Origin: a virus
DNA length: 22,715 nt
Direction: 5' to 3' (one strand)
IMG/VR virus record: IMGVR_UViG_3300027779_000171
Location: 1-22,715 of that record
Shown: one piece after another, positions 12,971-22,235 of the stretch
Numbering within the stretch: the first letter of the stretch is position 1
Layout of the letters: every line of letters starts with the position of its first letter
The notes under the pieces: model-generated
What the model saw: only the letters and a program-made list of their open reading frames with translations
Told to the model about the DNA's origin: nothing
The model's database searches: none
Translations under genes and position numbers: made by a program

Positions 12971-12999
12971 AACTTTTTTTTTAATGTGTTTATTTACTA

Positions 13000-13027
13000 T
13001 ATATAATGTAAATTAATCCTTTGTAAA
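13000..13027 (-). promoter_or_regulatory. Sigma70-like promoter candidate for the gp26-like gene
   Basis: On the minus strand TTTACA (13027-13022) and TATATA (13005-13000) are separated by 16 bases, immediately after the terminator hairpin at 13029-13058 and 30 bases before the gp26-like start. In such AT-rich DNA a chance match is possible. Confidence 0.35.
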
Positions 13028-13028
13028 C

Positions 13029-13058
13029 AATTAAGGACCTAATAATAGGTCCTTAATT
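13029..13058 (-). terminator. Long perfect hairpin after the tail tube gene
   Basis: AATTAAGGACCT and AGGTCCTTAATT form a perfect 12-bp stem with a 6-base loop, 27 bases past the tube stop codon. On the minus strand the T-run after the stem is poor (GTTTAC), so the stem may also act as an mRNA 3' end stabiliser for the abundant tube transcript. Being symmetric, it could stop transcription in both directions. Confidence 0.75.
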
Positions 13059-13084
13059 AAAATATATTTTTATATTAATACTGA

Positions 13085-14431: not shown

Positions 14432-17400
14432 TTAACTCACATCATTAAATGAGACGCTTGTTGGTGTGATGTTGAATTCTAACTCGATAAACTCTAAAGT
14501 TCTAGTTGGTTTAACAAATATCTTTCCAGTTAATGTATTGGTATCTAGTTCTGTTACATCATCATTTAGTTGTACTTGGAAGTCGTTTAACCCTCTATCT
14601 CGTCTTACATCTTCTAATATTGGATTAACTAGTGCTAAAAATTGTTGTCTAACAATGTCATCATTTTGTTCAAATATTAATTGTATTGCAACTTGTTTAA
14701 TCCTTGTACTAAGATATAACATTAGTCTTCTAACATTAATTCTATCTAGTGCAGAAGCGGTTGATTGAAGTGTTTTTTGTCCCCAGATAACAACACCTAT
14801 ACCATTAAATGTGGCAATTGGGTTTAGTCGGGCTTCATACAAGTCGTCTCTATTGGTTTGGGATAGTTTAATTCTGGCTCTGTCTACCTCCATCATTCCT
14901 CTATTGTATCCTGCTGTGGCAAACCATGGGAATGATACATTATCTGTTTTTGCCATATTCCTAACTATATCAGTTGTTGGTGGTAGATATATTCTAACAT
15001 TATTCTCTTTGTCATTATACCTCGCCCATGGCCAATAGGTAGCAACATAACTACTATTTAACGCCGCGTTCTCTAAATTTGTTATTGCTCCATCTACAGT
15101 TTGATTGGTTGGGTTTGATGAGGTTACTACATATAATGAGTCTCTCTTATCATTTTCTACCATTTGAATGGCTTTATTAACCAATACTAAGTTATTAGTG
15201 TAGTCAATTCCTGGAGTGGTTATAATACCACTTGGTGTGTCCTCAGGGTTAGATAATTTTCTCATTGCATCATAATAAGCGTAGTAATCGGTTACCTCAC
15301 AACTAGATGTTGTGAAACTCTGATTGTACCAGAAAGCGTCGTAGTTAGTTTTACCTATTATATCTAAATCTGTATTAGTTCTAGTTAATCTATATTCATC
15401 CCATCCATCATGTCCTCCATAAGGTAATACAGTGAATTTAAGATAATCTTTATTAGTATAGTAATTACCAACTTCACCTCCTAAAGTACCACCACTAGTA
15501 TAAAAGTTATAAGTTCCTACATTATATTGAGTTGCGTCAGCGGTAGTTAAACCCGACACTCTTTTATCAAAGTGAAAACCTTTTGTTTTACCAGTCCATA
15601 AGGTACCATTAGAACCACATTTATATGGTGATGTTTGTGTTAAATCCCCATTTAATCCTTTATAATCAAAATAATCCTGGTCAAGTCCTGTCTTTGAAGA
15701 CCATCCCAAATATGTTTTCCGGATATCATCGGCTACAATATCATATGATAAATTATAAAATGGTTTAGGTGCTATATTACCATACCATCCTGATGGTTCT
15801 GTAATTTCCGCTTCTGCTGGTGGGTCCATGTAGACTTCGTTTGAGTGTGTGGATCCACTGTAGTTTCTTATTACGTACCCTTCAAATCCTGATGGTAGCG
15901 CATCAACTGGAGCGTTTTCATCAAATTCAACCATAATATATTTAGACCTAACAGCATATTCTCCGTTCTCCGTACCTATTTTTTTACCTATATAGTTTTG
16001 ACTTCCTGGATTCATCATACATTTAGTGTATGCTTCCACAATTCTCTGATTAGCATCTGAATCAGAGAACTCTCTAACAGTTAAGGTAAATGTCTTATTC
16101 ATTACATCAACATCCTGAATTGATATTTTAACTGATTCGTTTGCTTCGTTACCGTCCGCAATTAATATAATTCTAAATAATCTAAATAGGTTCTCCCCTC
16201 TAATCTCTGATACAATCCAAGGAGTTGTTGGTCCTTCAACCGCTCCTAATGGTTGCCAATCTTCAGAATAGTTTGAGTAGGTTACCCCTGCTGTTATTTC
16301 ACTTCCAACCTGACCAAATCTAAGATTACTAAAAGTAACTGCTGACGCGGCTAACTGTTTTAATGTGTTAGGATAAAGTTCCTCAACCCACATATGTGTA
16401 TTCTTATCGTGTTTTTTTGTACCTAAAACTCGTGGTAAATATTTTTGAGATGTTGGATCTAAATTAACTTCGTAATTAAAACTCCCCCCAAACGCGTTAG
16501 TGTATCCCGAAAGATAAAAATCTTGTTTGTAGTTAGTGGTGTTTATATCAACAATCCTCTTGGACCTACACCCCACGGGTGCTGGTATCGTTCCATCACA
16601 CACAGCGTTTGTAATACCAAATGAAGGTGATGCAAAATCTGTAACCCCTGGAGGGTTTATATCTCCAGCCACATTAGCAGCGAATACATTACCTGAATAT
16701 TTTCCTCTACTTCTTAAAGTAGCTATAGACATATCTTGAGTTGCGGCACTCCAAGTGTATACAGTTCCAGTTGTTTGTGCGGTCCACCCTGTAGTACCTC
16801 CACTATGGTAACCAATATGATTTCCATATCTCCAATTAAATTGTAGTGAAGTTCCTGTAACTGGATATCCGATTGGTTGTATCGTCCTAGCACCGGTACC
16901 AGCATTAATTAGTTTATCTGGGTCTAAAGGTGATTCTGAGTTGTCAGCTGGGTCATATACCGAAATAGCTGGTCCCCAATTAATATTAGCAAAAGTTGTT
17001 CCGTTTGATTGGTCCATTACTCTCGTACACTCAAAACCTGTATTATTTGTTGCGTCTGTTGCACATGCATTAGCGTTATCTATTGATGGGTCTCCTCCAG
17101 TAGAGTGGTTGGTTGTGATAACAAATGTTCTACCACTTAATAAATTCATAGGATATGGTGTTAACTCTGATACCCAAGGTTTACCTCCTGTTGTGTACCA
17201 ATTACCACCAGTACTACCAGTTAAAACCATTTTACCGGCTCCTCCATAAGTGGTGGCAGAATAAATCATCATCATTTTTCGGGATGAAGGGTAATCAAAC
17301 ATATACCCATCTGGGTTAGCGTTATCAGCGTTTGTAAATTGTGCTCCGTTTACCTGTCCTTCTTGATTGGCGTTAAAACTGTACCCCCATGTTCCTCCAC

Positions 17401-17941
17401 TTAACATACCTGGTTGGCCAAATCCGGCCCCTTGCGTAGGAGCTGCATAAGTAGCACTCGAACCATTTATTAAACTAGTATTATTAATTAATGTTCCTGT
17501 TGGTGAAATATATGGTATACCGGTACCTCCTAGTTGATTTGGTGATTGTGATACGTAAGGGAACCCTGTACCAAAAGCTCTAAATACATTATCAAAAGTA
17601 GGTACATAGCTTACAATTATGTTCCAAGCATTACCCGCATTAAAACCAGCGTATCCTAAGGCTCTAACTGCCCACATGGAGTTAGATTCACTTAGAAAAC
17701 CTTTTGCGATATAAGATTGTTCATATTTTGGAATTGTGGTTCCTGAAAAAACTGTCGTATTTAACCCGCCGAAATAGGTTTGATATTCATTATAAGTTTC
17801 TACAAATATAGGTTGTTGTGCAGGTCCTTTTAGTGTTTCTCCGACACTTGCCAAAGTTGTTGCACCTATACTAGGTGTACTAAATGTAAGTTCTCTTTCG
17901 GAGGTATACACTCCTGGGGATATTGAAGCTTGATTCGCCAT
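14432..17941 (-). CDS. gp18: Tail sheath protein, second paralog (gp18-like, 1169 residues)
   Basis: The N-terminus 'SPGVYTSERELTF' and the C-terminal region from 'NRGMMEVDRARIKL' through 'RINVRRLMLYLSTRIK', 'NPILEDVRRDRGLNDF' and 'GKIFVKPTRTLEFIELEFN' are typical of T4 gp18 sheaths. T4 gp18 is 659 residues; this one is nearly twice that. Residues 1-105 and about 490-1169 match the neighbouring sheath, whereas residues about 105-490 are a Gly/Ser/Thr/Asn-rich insertion without a counterpart there. In T4 gp18 such insertions form protruding outer domains, so this one is probably exposed on the tail surface. The gene starts 24 bases after the first sheath gene with no Shine-Dalgarno, and is followed after 5 bases by the HAD-like gene. 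It would contract on infection, or form a special part of the sheath if the two paralogs differ in place. Confidence 0.93.
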   Translation of the reverse strand: MANQASISPGVYTSERELTFSTPSIGATTLASVGETLKGPAQQPIFVETYNEYQTYFGGLNTTVFSGTTIPKYEQSYIAKGFLSESNSMWAVRALGYAGFNAGNAWNIIVSYVPTFDNVFRAFGTGFPYVSQSPNQLGGTGIPYISPTGTLINNTSLINGSSATYAAPTQGAGFGQPGMLSGGTWGYSFNANQEGQVNGAQFTNADNANPDGYMFDYPSSRKMMMIYSATTYGGAGKMVLTGSTGGNWYTTGGKPWVSELTPYPMNLLSGRTFVITTNHSTGGDPSIDNANACATDATNNTGFECTRVMDQSNGTTFANINWGPAISVYDPADNSESPLDPDKLINAGTGARTIQPIGYPVTGTSLQFNWRYGNHIGYHSGGTTGWTAQTTGTVYTWSAATQDMSIATLRSRGKYSGNVFAANVAGDINPPGVTDFASPSFGITNAVCDGTIPAPVGCRSKRIVDINTTNYKQDFYLSGYTNAFGGSFNYEVNLDPTSQKYLPRVLGTKKHDKNTHMWVEELYPNTLKQLAASAVTFSNLRFGQVGSEITAGVTYSNYSEDWQPLGAVEGPTTPWIVSEIRGENLFRLFRIILIADGNEANESVKISIQDVDVMNKTFTLTVREFSDSDANQRIVEAYTKCMMNPGSQNYIGKKIGTENGEYAVRSKYIMVEFDENAPVDALPSGFEGYVIRNYSGSTHSNEVYMDPPAEAEITEPSGWYGNIAPKPFYNLSYDIVADDIRKTYLGWSSKTGLDQDYFDYKGLNGDLTQTSPYKCGSNGTLWTGKTKGFHFDKRVSGLTTADATQYNVGTYNFYTSGGTLGGEVGNYYTNKDYLKFTVLPYGGHDGWDEYRLTRTNTDLDIIGKTNYDAFWYNQSFTTSSCEVTDYYAYYDAMRKLSNPEDTPSGIITTPGIDYTNNLVLVNKAIQMVENDKRDSLYVVTSSNPTNQTVDGAITNLENAALNSSYVATYWPWARYNDKENNVRIYLPPTTDIVRNMAKTDNVSFPWFATAGYNRGMMEVDRARIKLSQTNRDDLYEARLNPIATFNGIGVVIWGQKTLQSTASALDRINVRRLMLYLSTRIKQVAIQLIFEQNDDIVRQQFLALVNPILEDVRRDRGLNDFQVQLNDDVTELDTNTLTGKIFVKPTRTLEFIELEFNITPTSVSFNDVS
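15399..15439. repeat. 41-base perfect repeat shared by the two sheath genes (copy in second paralog)
   Basis: This stretch is identical, base for base, to 18948-18988 in the other sheath gene. It encodes KFTVLPYGGHDGW, including synonymous positions, while neighbouring stretches of the two genes have diverged. Confidence 0.9.
16042..16069 (-). repeat. Intragenic hairpin in the second sheath gene
   Basis: TTCTCTGATT and AATCAGAGAA form a perfect 10-bp stem with an 8-base loop within codons for 'EFSDSDANQRI'. The matching place in the first sheath gene ('DYSDSDAKQVV') does not form it. No T-run follows on the minus strand, so this is not a standard terminator. Confidence 0.55.
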
Positions 17942-17965: not shown

Positions 17966-20806
17966 TTATATGTCGTCAAAACTTGTTGCTGTCGGTGTGA
18001 TGTTAAATTCTATTTCAATAAACTCTAATGAACGAGTTGGTTTAATAAAAATCTTACCTGTCAACTTGTTTTGATCGATTTCTTCTGGGTCGTTAGAAAG
18101 AACTACCTTAAAGTCTGTTAATCCTCTATCTCTTCTAATATCTTCTAATATTGGATTAACTAAGCTTAAAAATTCTTGTCTTACGATTTCATCATTTTGT
18201 TCAAATACTAATCTAACCGCAACTGCTGACACTAACTTTCTCGCTCTAAGAAGTAATCTTCTCACATTAATTCTATCTAATGCTGAAATAGCTGTTTGTA
18301 GAGTTTTATTACCCCAGATAACAGGTCCGGTTGCTGTAAATGTCGCGATTGGGTTGATTCTAGCCTCATATAGGTCGTCTCGGTCGTCTTGTGTTAGATT
18401 CCTTCTAACCTTATTGGCTTTTACAATACCTCTATTGTAACCTGCCGTTGCAAACCATGGGAAAGCTACATTATCAGTTATCGCCATATTTCTTAATACT
18501 TCACAAGTAGGTGGCATGTATAGTCTAACATTATTTTCGGTGTCATTGTATTGTATCCATGGCCAGTAAGTAGCAACATAATTACTATTAAGACTCGAGT
18601 CTTCTAATGCATTTACCGCTGATTCAATACTTTGGTCTTTGTAGTTATCTGCTGTAAGAAGGTATAAAGAATCTGCTCTATCATCCTCAATCATATCAAT
18701 AGTATCATTAACTAATGTTAAATTATTGGTATAATCAATTCCTGGTGTTGCAAATAAGTTTATATCAGTTTCTTCTGGGTTAGCAAACTTTCTTATTGCT
18801 GATTGGAACGAATACCAGTCTGAATTTTTATTATAAGCATAAGCTCCTAGTCCCGCTACTGCTGTTGAGCCAGAACCATAGTTTGAAAGATAGTTGGTAG
18901 CGTTTTCTTTCCATAAGTCACCATTACTACGTACTGATCTATATGGTTCCCATCCATCATGTCCTCCATAAGGTAATACAGTGAATTTTCTATATTTTTT
19001 ATTGTAATACAGATTTTTACTAGCTGATGTTTCATTTGAGCTACCAGCTCCGTAATATCCGTTTACAGTATATTGTGACGACGCCCCATAGAATGGGAAA
19101 GTACCAACTGATCCTGAGAACCATACTTTATAGTCTCCAGCGTTAGTGTTTTGTAAGAATGTACTTCCTGAAGCTCTTGTATCTAAATGGAATCCATAAG
19201 TTTTTCCTGTCCAAGCCGATGCACATACAGTACCCACAGTGTCTTCACAACCATGATAATCGAACATATCTTGGTCATAACCGAATTTACTTCCTAGACC
19301 TAAATAAGTTTTTCTGATGTTATCAGCTACTAGGTCATAACTAAGATTATAATATGCGAAAGGTTCTACTCTAGAATGAAGTGCTAAACCATCAGCAGCT
19401 CCCGTTCCTTGAGTTTGAGTCCTTCCACTTAGATTACCCCAATTATTTGAACCATTGGTTGTAGGATATCCGTCATATCCACTTGGTACAGCGTCTATTG
19501 GACAATTTTCATCAATCTCAACCATTATATATCTTGACCTTAACGCGTACTCTCCATTTAATGTTCCAATTTTCTTTCCTAAGTAGTTTTGACTTATCGG
19601 GTTAAGACTTATGTTTTTATATCCTTCTAATACTACTTGTTTTGCGTCTGAATCACTATAGTCTCTAACCGCTAAATCAAATGTTTTATTATCAATATCA
19701 ATATTAACGAAAGAGAATTTTACGTAATTATTGGCTGTGTTTCCATCTGCTATTGTAATGATTCTAAATAATTTTACTATTTCAGTACCTCTAACTTCTG
19801 AATAAATCCATGGTGATTGTGGTCCATCTGGTGTTGCTGTTGGTTGCCATGTGTCTGTATAATTATCCCAACCAGATTTTGCGTTAAACCAAGACATGTC
19901 TGTAACAGCATCTAAATAACTATTCGCCGCTGAACCACCCCATTCTTTACCCATTTGTTTAACAGTGTTAATATAGATTTGTTCTACATATAGTCTTTGG
20001 TCTGGGTTATTTTGGTCGTAGAAAGGATTAGTTCCTAGAACTTTTGTAATATAGTTATTACTATTTGGATTAAAACTAACTAAGTATCTGTCGTCCGGAT
20101 CTCCAACACCTGCATATGCTTGTCTTCGAGCGGCTATAGTAAAATCACCTGTTGCGTCAGCCCAAGCACCACCATCAATATTTGCACCAAGGATTCCACT
20201 ACCTCCAACAGTAAATCCATTTGCTGCCCAGGTTGGAGAAGCAACATTAGTATTAGCAATACCATAACCAACCGTAGGTACAATACCAATTTGAATATTT
20301 GGTTGATTGTATGTTGGTCCTGAATAGTATTTTCTAGCTCTAATTACACAAGCTGTTGTTGCAGATAATCTTGATCCATTAGTTGCTTGTCTCACAGACG
20401 ATGTTGTTGGGTGTGGTAAAGAACCAACACAATCTGTACCACATCCAACACTTAAGTTAATAACTAAAGCTTCAGTTGCATCATATCCTGTACCGCCTAG
20501 AACACGAGTTGTCCATAAATTGTTCGATTCACTTAAATAAGCCCTAGCAATATAGGTGGTTTCGTATCTTGGATATTTCGCATCACTAGAGACACAAGGT
20601 TGACCTAAACAATACTGGTCTGTTTTTTGTCCTCCAAAATAGGTTTTATATGTATCGTAGTCCCCTACGAATATTGGTTGGTTTGCTGGTCCTCTATAAG
20701 TTTCCCCCGCAATACCTAAACGTGTTATACCAACACTAGAAGCAACAAACGAAAGATCTTTCTCTGATGTATAAACTCCTGGTGATACTACTACTTGATT
20801 TGCCAT
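17966..20806 (-). CDS. gp18: Tail sheath protein, first paralog (gp18-like, 946 residues)
   Basis: A second gp18-type sheath: 'SPGVYTSEKDLSF' at the start, 'YIARAYLSESNNLWTTRVLGG' near residue 85-105, and the C-terminal core 'DDLYEARINPIATF', 'ALDRINVRRLLL', 'LVNPILEDIRRDRG', 'GKIFIKPTRSLEFIEIEFN'. It is closely related to the following gene at both ends. Its own insertion (about residues 110-245) is shorter and different in sequence; it contains Cys pairs (YCLGQPC and CGTDC) that the other paralog lacks. Sheath subunits surround the tube and contract to drive it through the cell envelope. The gene opens the sheath/HAD unit, with an A-rich leader and promoter-like elements at 20844-20872 and 20926-20933. 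Having two complete sheath genes in tandem suggests a mixed sheath, alternative tails, or recent duplication with change of surface. Confidence 0.93.
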   Translation of the reverse strand: MANQVVVSPGVYTSEKDLSFVASSVGITRLGIAGETYRGPANQPIFVGDYDTYKTYFGGQKTDQYCLGQPCVSSDAKYPRYETTYIARAYLSESNNLWTTRVLGGTGYDATEALVINLSVGCGTDCVGSLPHPTTSSVRQATNGSRLSATTACVIRARKYYSGPTYNQPNIQIGIVPTVGYGIANTNVASPTWAANGFTVGGSGILGANIDGGAWADATGDFTIAARRQAYAGVGDPDDRYLVSFNPNSNNYITKVLGTNPFYDQNNPDQRLYVEQIYINTVKQMGKEWGGSAANSYLDAVTDMSWFNAKSGWDNYTDTWQPTATPDGPQSPWIYSEVRGTEIVKLFRIITIADGNTANNYVKFSFVNIDIDNKTFDLAVRDYSDSDAKQVVLEGYKNISLNPISQNYLGKKIGTLNGEYALRSRYIMVEIDENCPIDAVPSGYDGYPTTNGSNNWGNLSGRTQTQGTGAADGLALHSRVEPFAYYNLSYDLVADNIRKTYLGLGSKFGYDQDMFDYHGCEDTVGTVCASAWTGKTYGFHLDTRASGSTFLQNTNAGDYKVWFSGSVGTFPFYGASSQYTVNGYYGAGSSNETSASKNLYYNKKYRKFTVLPYGGHDGWEPYRSVRSNGDLWKENATNYLSNYGSGSTAVAGLGAYAYNKNSDWYSFQSAIRKFANPEETDINLFATPGIDYTNNLTLVNDTIDMIEDDRADSLYLLTADNYKDQSIESAVNALEDSSLNSNYVATYWPWIQYNDTENNVRLYMPPTCEVLRNMAITDNVAFPWFATAGYNRGIVKANKVRRNLTQDDRDDLYEARINPIATFTATGPVIWGNKTLQTAISALDRINVRRLLLRARKLVSAVAVRLVFEQNDEIVRQEFLSLVNPILEDIRRDRGLTDFKVVLSNDPEEIDQNKLTGKIFIKPTRSLEFIEIEFNITPTATSFDDI
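18948..18988. repeat. 41-base perfect repeat shared by the two sheath genes (copy in first paralog)
   Basis: Identical to 15399-15439; see that entry. The longer surroundings on both sides are similar but not identical. Confidence 0.9.
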
Positions 20807-20841
20807 GTTTTACTGTATTTTTTAATTTTTGTTATTCTTTG

Positions 20842-20856
20842 GTTTTATAATAAATA
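20842..20856 (-). promoter_or_regulatory. Copy 3 of a recurring AT-rich upstream motif
   Basis: Reads TATTTATTATAAAAC on the minus strand, 35 bases before the first sheath ATG. It matches the copies at 11994-12008 (one difference) and 7634-7648 (two differences), and overlaps the -10 element proposed for the sheath promoter. Confidence 0.4.
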
Positions 20857-20872
20857 CTCTTGTTTTTATCAA
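20844..20872 (-). promoter_or_regulatory. Sigma70-like promoter candidate for the sheath operon
   Basis: On the minus strand TTGATA (20872-20867) and TATAAA (20849-20844) are exactly 17 bases apart, each one base from the sigma70 consensus, and lie 38 bases before the sheath start codon. If it is used, transcription of both sheath genes and the HAD-like gene starts here. Confidence 0.5.
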
Positions 20873-20895
20873 AGGTCGAGGGGTTTTTACCATGA

Positions 20896-20924
20896 GTATG
20901 AAAAGAATCATACTTTTTTCATAC
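20896..20924. repeat. Operator-like inverted repeat upstream of the RHH gene
   Basis: GTATGAAAA (20896-20904) and TTTTCATAC (20916-20924) are perfect 9-base inverted arms. A third half-site, TCATAC (20908-20913), lies between them and pairs with the first arm as well. Such multi-half-site layouts are common for ribbon-helix-helix repressors. The cluster ends 10 bases before the start codon of the RHH-like gene and lies just downstream of the TATAAATA on the minus strand. Confidence 0.5.
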
Positions 20925-20925
20925 T

Positions 20926-20933
20926 TATTTATA
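20926..20933 (-). promoter_or_regulatory. T4-type late promoter octamer facing the sheath genes
   Basis: The minus strand reads TATAAATA, the exact T4 late promoter consensus, 120 bases before the first sheath ATG. A start 6-7 bases downstream would fall inside the inverted repeat 20896-20924. The octamer also occurs by chance elsewhere in this AT-rich DNA. Confidence 0.35.
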
Positions 20934-20934
20934 T

Positions 20935-21108
20935 ATGGATAATCTAAAACGTAATAAAAACCTTAAAATCGATAGTAAGACCCATTCTATCCTAAAATCT
21001 TATTGTGATAAAAATGGTCTAAAGATGTTTGCCCTTGTAGAAAAGTTAATAAGGGAAAATTGTTCCTCCACTCGTTATAATAAAAAAGACGATCTTTACA
21101 ATGACTAA
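20935..21108 (+). CDS. Small ribbon-helix-helix-like DNA-binding protein
   Basis: A 57-residue protein, the only convincing plus-strand gene here. Residues 9-13 (NLKID) fit the DNA-contacting strand, residues 14-27 (SKTHSILKSYCDKNG) the first helix, and residues 30-42 (KMFALVEKLIREN) the second helix with its hydrophobic face. The two termini are Lys/Asn/Asp-rich. RHH proteins are dimeric repressors that often control their own gene. The gene is encoded against the late genes, in a gap of about 300 bases, and its stop codon overlaps the stop of the gp15-like gene by 4 bases (convergent). The inverted repeat at 20896-20924 sits at a good operator distance. No Shine-Dalgarno is visible; a TATAAT occurs at 20846-20851 without a matching -35. 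The opposite orientation suggests early or constitutive expression, unlike the structural genes. Confidence 0.68.
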   Translation: MDNLKRNKNLKIDSKTHSILKSYCDKNGLKMFALVEKLIRENCSSTRYNKKDDLYND

Positions 21109-22235
21109 ATCTTATTAATGTAACCATGTAAGGTTAGTGTCGCATCTAAACTAACATTAATAAGGTTTCCATCTATATAGAGATAATACCCTGGTAGTAC
21201 TTGTAGAGGTAAGTTTACTGATGTAAATGTCGCCCCCTCATCTAGACTCAGGTAAAGTCGAGGCCCCCCTACTGGACAATCATCACTAACCTCCGGACAA
21301 TCCCTAAGATTATCAAAAGTCATTGTTGTTAGTAATGCACTATCTATAACTTTAGTTGAGTTGTCTATGGTTGTTATAGAGGTTCCGTCTAAGGAATCTC
21401 CTACATTCCATTGGAAGTTTATTGTTGATTCGTCTGTTCGTCTTCCCGAGTCTAGTCCATCTGTAGCGTTCAAACTTGGTACGATTTTGGGTTCCGTTTC
21501 AAATAATGTAATTACTCTTTTTATTGCTGGTGTCACTTCATATTCTTCTTCATCCATAATATAACCTAACATCTGCATTTCAAAACTTTGGATGTAAAAT
21601 CGTTTCTTTTCAAACTGATCTATCGTACTTTCGTCTCCTATATTTTCTAATATTATTGGGAAATAGTGACCATTACAATTAATGTACTTTTGTCTTGATT
21701 GGAATTCTTGCATCACAGCTTTATTGAATTTGTTTATCTCTCTCATTCTATAGGAGAAAAATCTAACCTCGTAAGTTAGATTAACTGCGATTGGTTGTGG
21801 TATTTTATAGACATCGACACCAACACCATCCCCGTCATAATTTGGAACTTTCATATAGTCAAACCGTTGTTTCTGAGGTATTGTATATTGAGTAACTGGA
21901 TTCGTACCAAATTGTATATCTGGGTGACGCACTATAGTTACAAAAGGAATTTGTACATTACGGTCTTTATCAGAAAATTCCCAAGTTCTTGCGAATTCTG
22001 CCCACCTTTGCATTGTTAGAAAAAATACCGGTACCTTTTCACCACCTAAAGAAACACTTAATTCGTCTTTAACAAACTTAATAAAGTCTCTGTCCATATC
22101 TTCATAAAGTACTCCTTTAGGTACAAAAGTACCACTAGCATTCCATCCCTCTTCCCATAACTCTAGTCTTCTTGCGTGGTTACGAGACTTTGCCTTAAGT
22201 TGTACATTCTTTAAGAATTTCTTAGGTATTCCCAT
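21105..22235 (-). CDS. gp15: Tail completion protein (gp15-like) with C-terminal extension
   Basis: A 376-residue protein whose first about 250 residues fit T4 gp15, the hexamer that caps the tail and joins it to the neck. Visible features are 'VPVFFLTMQRWAEFARTWEF' (68-87), 'NVQIPFVTIVRH' (93-104), 'PIAVNLTYEVRFFSYRMREINKFNKAV' (148-174) and 'FPIILENIGDES' (192-203), the pattern of a beta-rich core with one long helix. T4 gp15 has 272 residues. The extra C-terminal part (about 250-376) is a Thr/Ser/Asp-rich segment with two Cys pairs and a beta-rich end, possibly a separate decorating domain. The gene starts 2 bases after the gp14-like gene, as in T4 order 14-15-18-19. Its 3' end contains an inverted repeat (21111-21164) and overlaps the RHH gene. 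Confidence 0.75.
   Translation of the reverse strand: MGIPKKFLKNVQLKAKSRNHARRLELWEEGWNASGTFVPKGVLYEDMDRDFIKFVKDELSVSLGGEKVPVFFLTMQRWAEFARTWEFSDKDRNVQIPFVTIVRHPDIQFGTNPVTQYTIPQKQRFDYMKVPNYDGDGVGVDVYKIPQPIAVNLTYEVRFFSYRMREINKFNKAVMQEFQSRQKYINCNGHYFPIILENIGDESTIDQFEKKRFYIQSFEMQMLGYIMDEEEYEVTPAIKRVITLFETEPKIVPSLNATDGLDSGRRTDESTINFQWNVGDSLDGTSITTIDNSTKVIDSALLTTMTFDNLRDCPEVSDDCPVGGPRLYLSLDEGATFTSVNLPLQVLPGYYLYIDGNLINVSLDATLTLHGYINKI
21111..21164. repeat. 11-bp inverted repeat at the convergent gene ends
   Basis: CTTATTAATGT (21111-21121) and ACATTAATAAG (21154-21164) are perfect inverted arms around 32 bases. An alternative inner stem, GTTAGT (21133-21138) with ACTAAC (21150-21155), competes with it. 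It starts 3 bases after the RHH stop and lies inside the last codons of the gp15-like gene. It may be a bidirectional terminator-like element, though no T-run follows. Confidence 0.45.

Follow-up and report, generated by a model that had tools for sequence, protein, structure and literature searches.

A putative ribbon-helix-helix regulator encoded divergently from the tail sheath gene in uncultured contractile-tailed phages

Contractile phages must make tail sheath protein at the proper time and in the proper quantity, and the locus described here raises the question of whether one small protein is dedicated to controlling it. The window, meaning the whole analysed stretch of 22,715 nucleotides, comes from an uncultured phage with a contractile tail. 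In this 22.7-kb fragment all genes lie on the minus strand other than a 57-codon open reading frame (ORF) on the plus strand (20935–21108, ATG start, TAA stop). No in-frame ATG, GTG or TTG was found upstream of its start. The ORF occupies a 298-bp gap (20807–21104) upstream of the first sheath gene and in opposite orientation to it, in agreement with the preliminary description of a plus-strand frame opposed to the tail genes in a gap of roughly 300 bases, and it overlaps by 4 bp the end of a 376-aa gene (21105–22235, minus strand). A toxin-antitoxin reading was dropped, the gap holding no partner gene.

The tail-gene setting assumed from the outset is confirmed by PHROG matching, which places two tandem sheath genes and one tube gene of the window in known phage tail families. 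The divergent partner of the small ORF, and its inferred regulatory target, is a sheath gene of 946 aa (17966–20806, minus strand; phrog_23, E = 2.8e-59), followed by a second sheath gene of 1169 aa (14432–17941, minus strand). The two products are approximately 45–50% alike across their shared parts and both far exceed the length of the 496-column sheath PHROG. Two sheath genes are present in close relatives too, while more distant relatives may have one. A terminator-like hairpin, AAGGACCTA...TAGGTCCTT, is located between the tube gene and a 252-aa gene (12971–13084, minus strand). The 376-aa neighbour had been labelled gp15, a label left unsupported by searches of PHROG, PDB and phage records, which returned zero matches.

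The 57-codon ORF is a real, conserved gene under purifying selection. A single-sequence scan recovered 42 encoding loci, with 46–100% identity to the window protein, and a profile scan extended these to at least 523 relatives, the gene being present in more than 500 viral contigs. Across twelve gap-free relatives pN/pS in the reading frame of the ORF is 0.27; the two remaining plus frames each give 1.0 and the opposite strand 0.56–1.9, a pattern unlike that of non-coding DNA. Among the 42 diverse members nine residues are invariant (K8, N9, K11, I12, H17, K21, C24, I39 and Y55) and a KDIYG-like C-terminal motif is frequent. An ORF so short, overlapping the end of its neighbour, could be suspected of being a chance frame over a regulatory region or an antisense RNA, but constraint confined to this one frame, together with hundreds of homologues sharing invariant residues, rules this out for practical purposes.

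On profile matches and a predicted fold, which agree, the 57-aa protein belongs among the ribbon-helix-helix (RHH) regulators, as its apparent strand-helix-helix pattern had suggested. The PHROG family phrog_582, 'Arc-like repressor', is matched by 38 of the 42 members (best E 5.3e-6). In Pfam, RepB-RCR_reg is matched in 16 of 17 members and ParG and Omega in 8 of 17; the Pfam families matched by most members are of RHH type, and the window protein's own matches to such families stay below the Pfam cut-offs. The Pfam Arc-type model matched neither the window protein (E up to 10) nor the 17 members (E up to 0.5). A PDB profile search returned SvtR (E = 8.7e-4) and, weakly, ParG, and SUMO matches from the same search were discarded as a 15-residue chance likeness. 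When modelled as a single chain from the 17-row alignment, the protein gave one long helix with modest confidence; the 42-row alignment gave the layout expected of RHH proteins, with an extended segment (residues 1–13) and two helices (14–27 and 31–48), the N-terminal strand not being formed in the monomer. This layout fits the strand-helix-helix core of about 45 residues of the RHH superfamily, and the model's best Foldseek matches are mostly RHH proteins (Arc, the top match, then ParG, AvtR, CopG and NikR), at E values of 0.27 or worse. Repeats spaced 10–12 bp, as RHH operators have, are present beside the gene.

The position of the gene is constant. It lies divergently and directly upstream of the sheath gene at 42 of 42 loci in the single-sequence set and at 75 of 75 loci drawn from the best 80 of at least 523 profile matches, to which locus inspection was applied. 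More broadly, the sheath is its divergent neighbour in all 349 assessable cases among 350 ORFs (overlapping loci, 190 distinct proteins). A scan led instead by a neighbouring 142-aa gene found the RHH gene in 54 of 79 loci, always adjoining the sheath. Six of the other 25 have an adjacent sheath but no RHH gene, and in the remainder the sheath falls outside the stretch examined. When 26 whole records were searched, 24 proved to carry one RHH copy and no more; four of these had no RHH gene at their 142-aa locus. These two results identify the sheath, rather than the 142-aa or 376-aa gene, as the partner of the RHH gene, which stays with it even at loci where other neighbours have moved. The suggested check for the gene between gp15 and gp18 in related phages came out in favour, with the gp15 label unsupported.

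Between the two divergent genes lies a candidate operator. In the window it comprises the palindrome GTATGA-N6-TCATAC (half-sites 2 and 3; 20896–20913) and an extra direct GTATGA half-site (20919–20924, minus strand), 11 bp from half-site 2 and 10 bp from the RHH start codon. The same layout, an 18-bp palindrome with 6-bp arms and a 6-bp spacer plus a direct half-site 10–11 bp further out (11 bp, but 10 in one class), recurs in relatives, and in all half-site classes the RHH start codon is nearby. Of 90 non-redundant regions, 88 contain the palindromic layout at a score of 9 of 12 or higher. Scored against the consensus arms of its class, the palindrome reaches at least 10 of 12 in 76 of the 90, compared with 6.3 in shuffles. 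For direct repeats, 70 non-redundant regions demonstrate a strong excess at lag 11 (70%, against 23% after shuffling; z = 11.8), a lesser one at lag 10 (z = 4.2) and none at lags 12–19. Six relatives without the RHH gene, read by eye, keep the sheath promoter and lack the operator.

Within a genome the site is rarely repeated. In 11 of 12 long records (55–231 kb) GTATGA-N5-GTATGA has a single occurrence, next to the RHH gene, and the GTAGAA form of the operator is likewise single in 7 of 10 records. A global-regulator reading was consequently dropped, these two forms being essentially unique per genome, although the case is less clear for AAGATA palindromes, similar copies of which AAGATA-class phages carry elsewhere too. 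In three loci of that class (L381, L385 and L387) an AGATA-N6-TATCT palindrome stands 68 bp from a TATTTAT, in similar phase, where one gene ends and ahead of a homologous gene for an acidic protein. Either a second target or chance within coding sequence could explain it.

The sheath side of the region carries two elements conserved in relatives, TATTTAT (20850–20856, minus strand), 48 bp from the palindrome centre, and CTTTG (20870–20874, minus strand), at fixed spacing to it. TATTTAT lies 37–62 bp before the sheath start in 69 of 70 non-redundant intergenic regions. It is also found upstream of the tube gene, in gene sense, in 42 of 42 relatives, and is therefore taken as a promoter element directed at the gene. 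The conserved ATATTTAT was initially taken for a late promoter of the T4 type (TATAAATA) directed at the RHH gene. This reading was rejected because, ahead of the tube gene, all 42 relatives have TATTTAT in gene sense and 3 of 42 have ATAAATA. TATTTAT is a candidate late promoter element of this phage group, resembling the reverse complement of the T4 TATAAATA. Gene-sense copies are seen in the gaps before 7627, 11984, 13573 and 20806 (minus strand), upstream of late genes. A scan for sigma-70 promoters and terminators returned nothing above chance.

Operator and sheath promoter are held at a fixed helical position relative to one another. Among 88 sites the palindrome centre lies 47–48 bp from TATTTAT in 26, 57–60 bp in 59 and at another distance in 3, so that two main spacings of about 48 and 58.5 bp, which differ by one helical turn, cover 85 of the 88. 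In phase are 87 of the 88 real sites, against 38% of chance sites in shuffled regions, counts to be read in the knowledge that a mischosen palindrome would look phased also, because the half-site array itself repeats every 10–11 bp. Phase coherence at 10.5 bp, expressed as the resultant, is 0.91 for the distance from palindrome centre to TATTTAT; measured to the RHH start it falls to 0.18, and the sheath 5' leader gives 0.08. Conservation of the spacer sequence is low (46% vs 36% expected), and it is accordingly the length of the spacer, not its sequence, that is kept. Approximately three clean one-turn changes of spacing are evident (the clade of the window, L066 and the AAGATA clade); on a tree of poor resolution, parsimony counts eight, and those beyond the clean three may arise from the choice among half-sites repeating every 10–11 bp. 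The 68–69 bp spacings given by L065 and L189 are artefacts, the wrong repeat having been chosen. An upstream site locked to one face of the helix, ahead of the -35 region as in class I activator architecture, is hence present, with transcription start sites estimated, and the earlier suggestion that the protein controls sheath expression gains support from it.

The half-sites occur in three versions, GTATGA, GGTAGA and AAGATA, and the version follows two residues of the ribbon predicted to contact DNA, those that precede its conserved KN. Proteins of the GTATG class have R-x before KN in 38 of 42 cases, those of the GNAGAA class have x-I in 20 of 20, and those of the AAGATA class have mostly K or T, then Q, S or T. 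N9 and K11 are invariant, and the residues before KN track the half-site class, an association that shared descent explains in part. On the sheath tree, built from few columns, the class changes about seven times.

Taken with the divergent pairing with the sheath gene, a DNA target whose helical position relative to the sheath promoter is fixed makes the 57-aa protein very probably a dedicated switch for tail-sheath production. The RHH protein, as a dimer or a pair of dimers, would bind the three short half-sites in the divergent region. Once bound it would shut down its own synthesis, as expected from an operator adjoining its start codon. The GGTAGA class gives the best support for negative autoregulation, since a promoter element directed at the RHH gene appears to read into the operator there: TATTTAT in this direction adjoins the operator in 28 of 33 regions, compared with 2.9 in shuffles. 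No convincing RHH-directed promoter was found in the class of the window. The same operator would serve the sheath promoter, the site facing a constant side of the helix. With a transcription start assumed some 12 bp beyond the first T of TATTTAT, the operator would be centred near -60 or -70, positions estimated from sequence. Class I activators contact RNA polymerase from such positions, although helically phased repressors exist as well. It is this match in geometry that favours activation of the sheath promoter, combined with negative autoregulation, and we consider it probable that an autoregulated RHH protein acts in this way from its upstream operator. The estimated sites resemble that of CRP at lac, which acts from -61.5 (PMC6301791), which further makes activation the first choice.

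The same protein could, on the other hand, repress the sheath promoter as well as its own gene, delaying the sheath until late, as is thought for SvtR of the virus SIRV1. The majority of RHH proteins are repressors (PMC3325190), SvtR, itself a profile match, represses itself and acts on a structural promoter some 80 nt downstream of its site (PMC5569661), and the extra direct half-sites would permit spreading. Yet the operator stands upstream of both sheath promoter elements without covering them, and simple occlusion needs no helical phase although phase is kept, which leaves double repression a rather unlikely alternative.

Helical phase also bears on whether the protein regulates only itself, its place beside the sheath being inherited and irrelevant to sheath expression. 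An operator near the RHH start codon in every class, and the frequency of autoregulation among RHH regulators, would fit this; the phasing is nevertheless to the sheath promoter and not to the RHH start, and the gene follows the sheath when other neighbours move, so that self-regulation alone appears improbable. More remote still is the case in which another factor, of host or phage, binds the repeats while the RHH protein acts elsewhere or outside transcription. Binding of the repeats by the RHH protein is predicted, and plasmid partition proteins, as well as an endonuclease-like ORF at one locus, have similar domains; against this, the half-site version follows the ribbon residues immediately preceding the conserved KN, and relatives without the gene are also without the operator. 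Activation of the sheath promoter with self-repression is retained as the preferred reading.

Known regulators share parts of this arrangement. Arc and Mnt of phage P22 are likewise small RHH phage regulators, with Arc-like PHROGs matching 38 of the 42 members; they are located in the immunity region, and Arc recognises two half-sites about 11 bp apart. The window protein shares the spacing of about 11 bp with Arc, which is its top structural match. It differs in that its gene adjoins the tail sheath gene rather than lying in an immunity region, in having three half-sites with the operator phased to a divergent late-type promoter, and in lacking a match to the Pfam Arc model. Like the proposed switch, SvtR of SIRV1, an RHH protein of about 55 residues (profile match 8.7e-4), controls itself together with a virion structural gene, on whose promoter it acts from roughly 80 nt upstream (PMC5569661); however, its host and promoter are archaeal, it has several binding sites on its genome, and its structural target is not described as a divergent neighbour (PMC5569661). 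The phi29 protein p4 activates a late promoter from upstream and represses others (PMC3100819), so that a phage protein doing both is possible. It too is a small phage regulator acting at inverted repeats between promoters, but it has another fold and serves a genome-wide early-late switch together with p6, not the sheath in particular. For a single RHH protein the combination is possible as well, given that AmrZ of Pseudomonas aeruginosa represses its own gene and activates another (PMC3325190); AmrZ differs as a bacterial regulator of many genes, with its activating site 282 bp upstream of the start.

The components are known, and their probable dedication to the sheath gene is new. Neither an RHH protein linked with a tail sheath or a cyanophage nor a gene-specific sheath regulator was found described in the open-licence literature searched. 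Four diverse queries found no relative in 50,697 phage records, no RHH gene was found near the sheath in Mel-JY01, Mosig, S-CAM22, immuto or the uncultured phage LR756508, and no isolate phage was found to carry the gene at the sensitivity used. The gene is small, easily missed by length cut-offs and very common in environmental phages. Together with their operators, the approximately 190 distinct proteins form a natural series, spanning three versions of the half-site and two main spacings to the promoter, in which RHH recognition and promoter phasing are directly testable. The full picture, in which widespread uncultured contractile phages possess an RHH regulator for the sheath only, combining phased activation with self-repression, and have changed operator and ribbon together several times, is put forward tentatively, its likelihood falling a little short of even.

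The sole cellular match is a contig of a Prochlorococcus single-cell genome (L135) with the same RHH-sheath arrangement. This contig probably belongs to a phage of that cell and is the only host hint for the phage group. At a further locus (L095) an endonuclease-like ORF beside the RHH gene, with a weak match to phrog_945 (endonuclease), ends in a domain resembling the RHH protein, and two loci with long gaps (L084 and L086) are grouped with it. The RHH domain of the regulator may thus be shared with mobile endonucleases.
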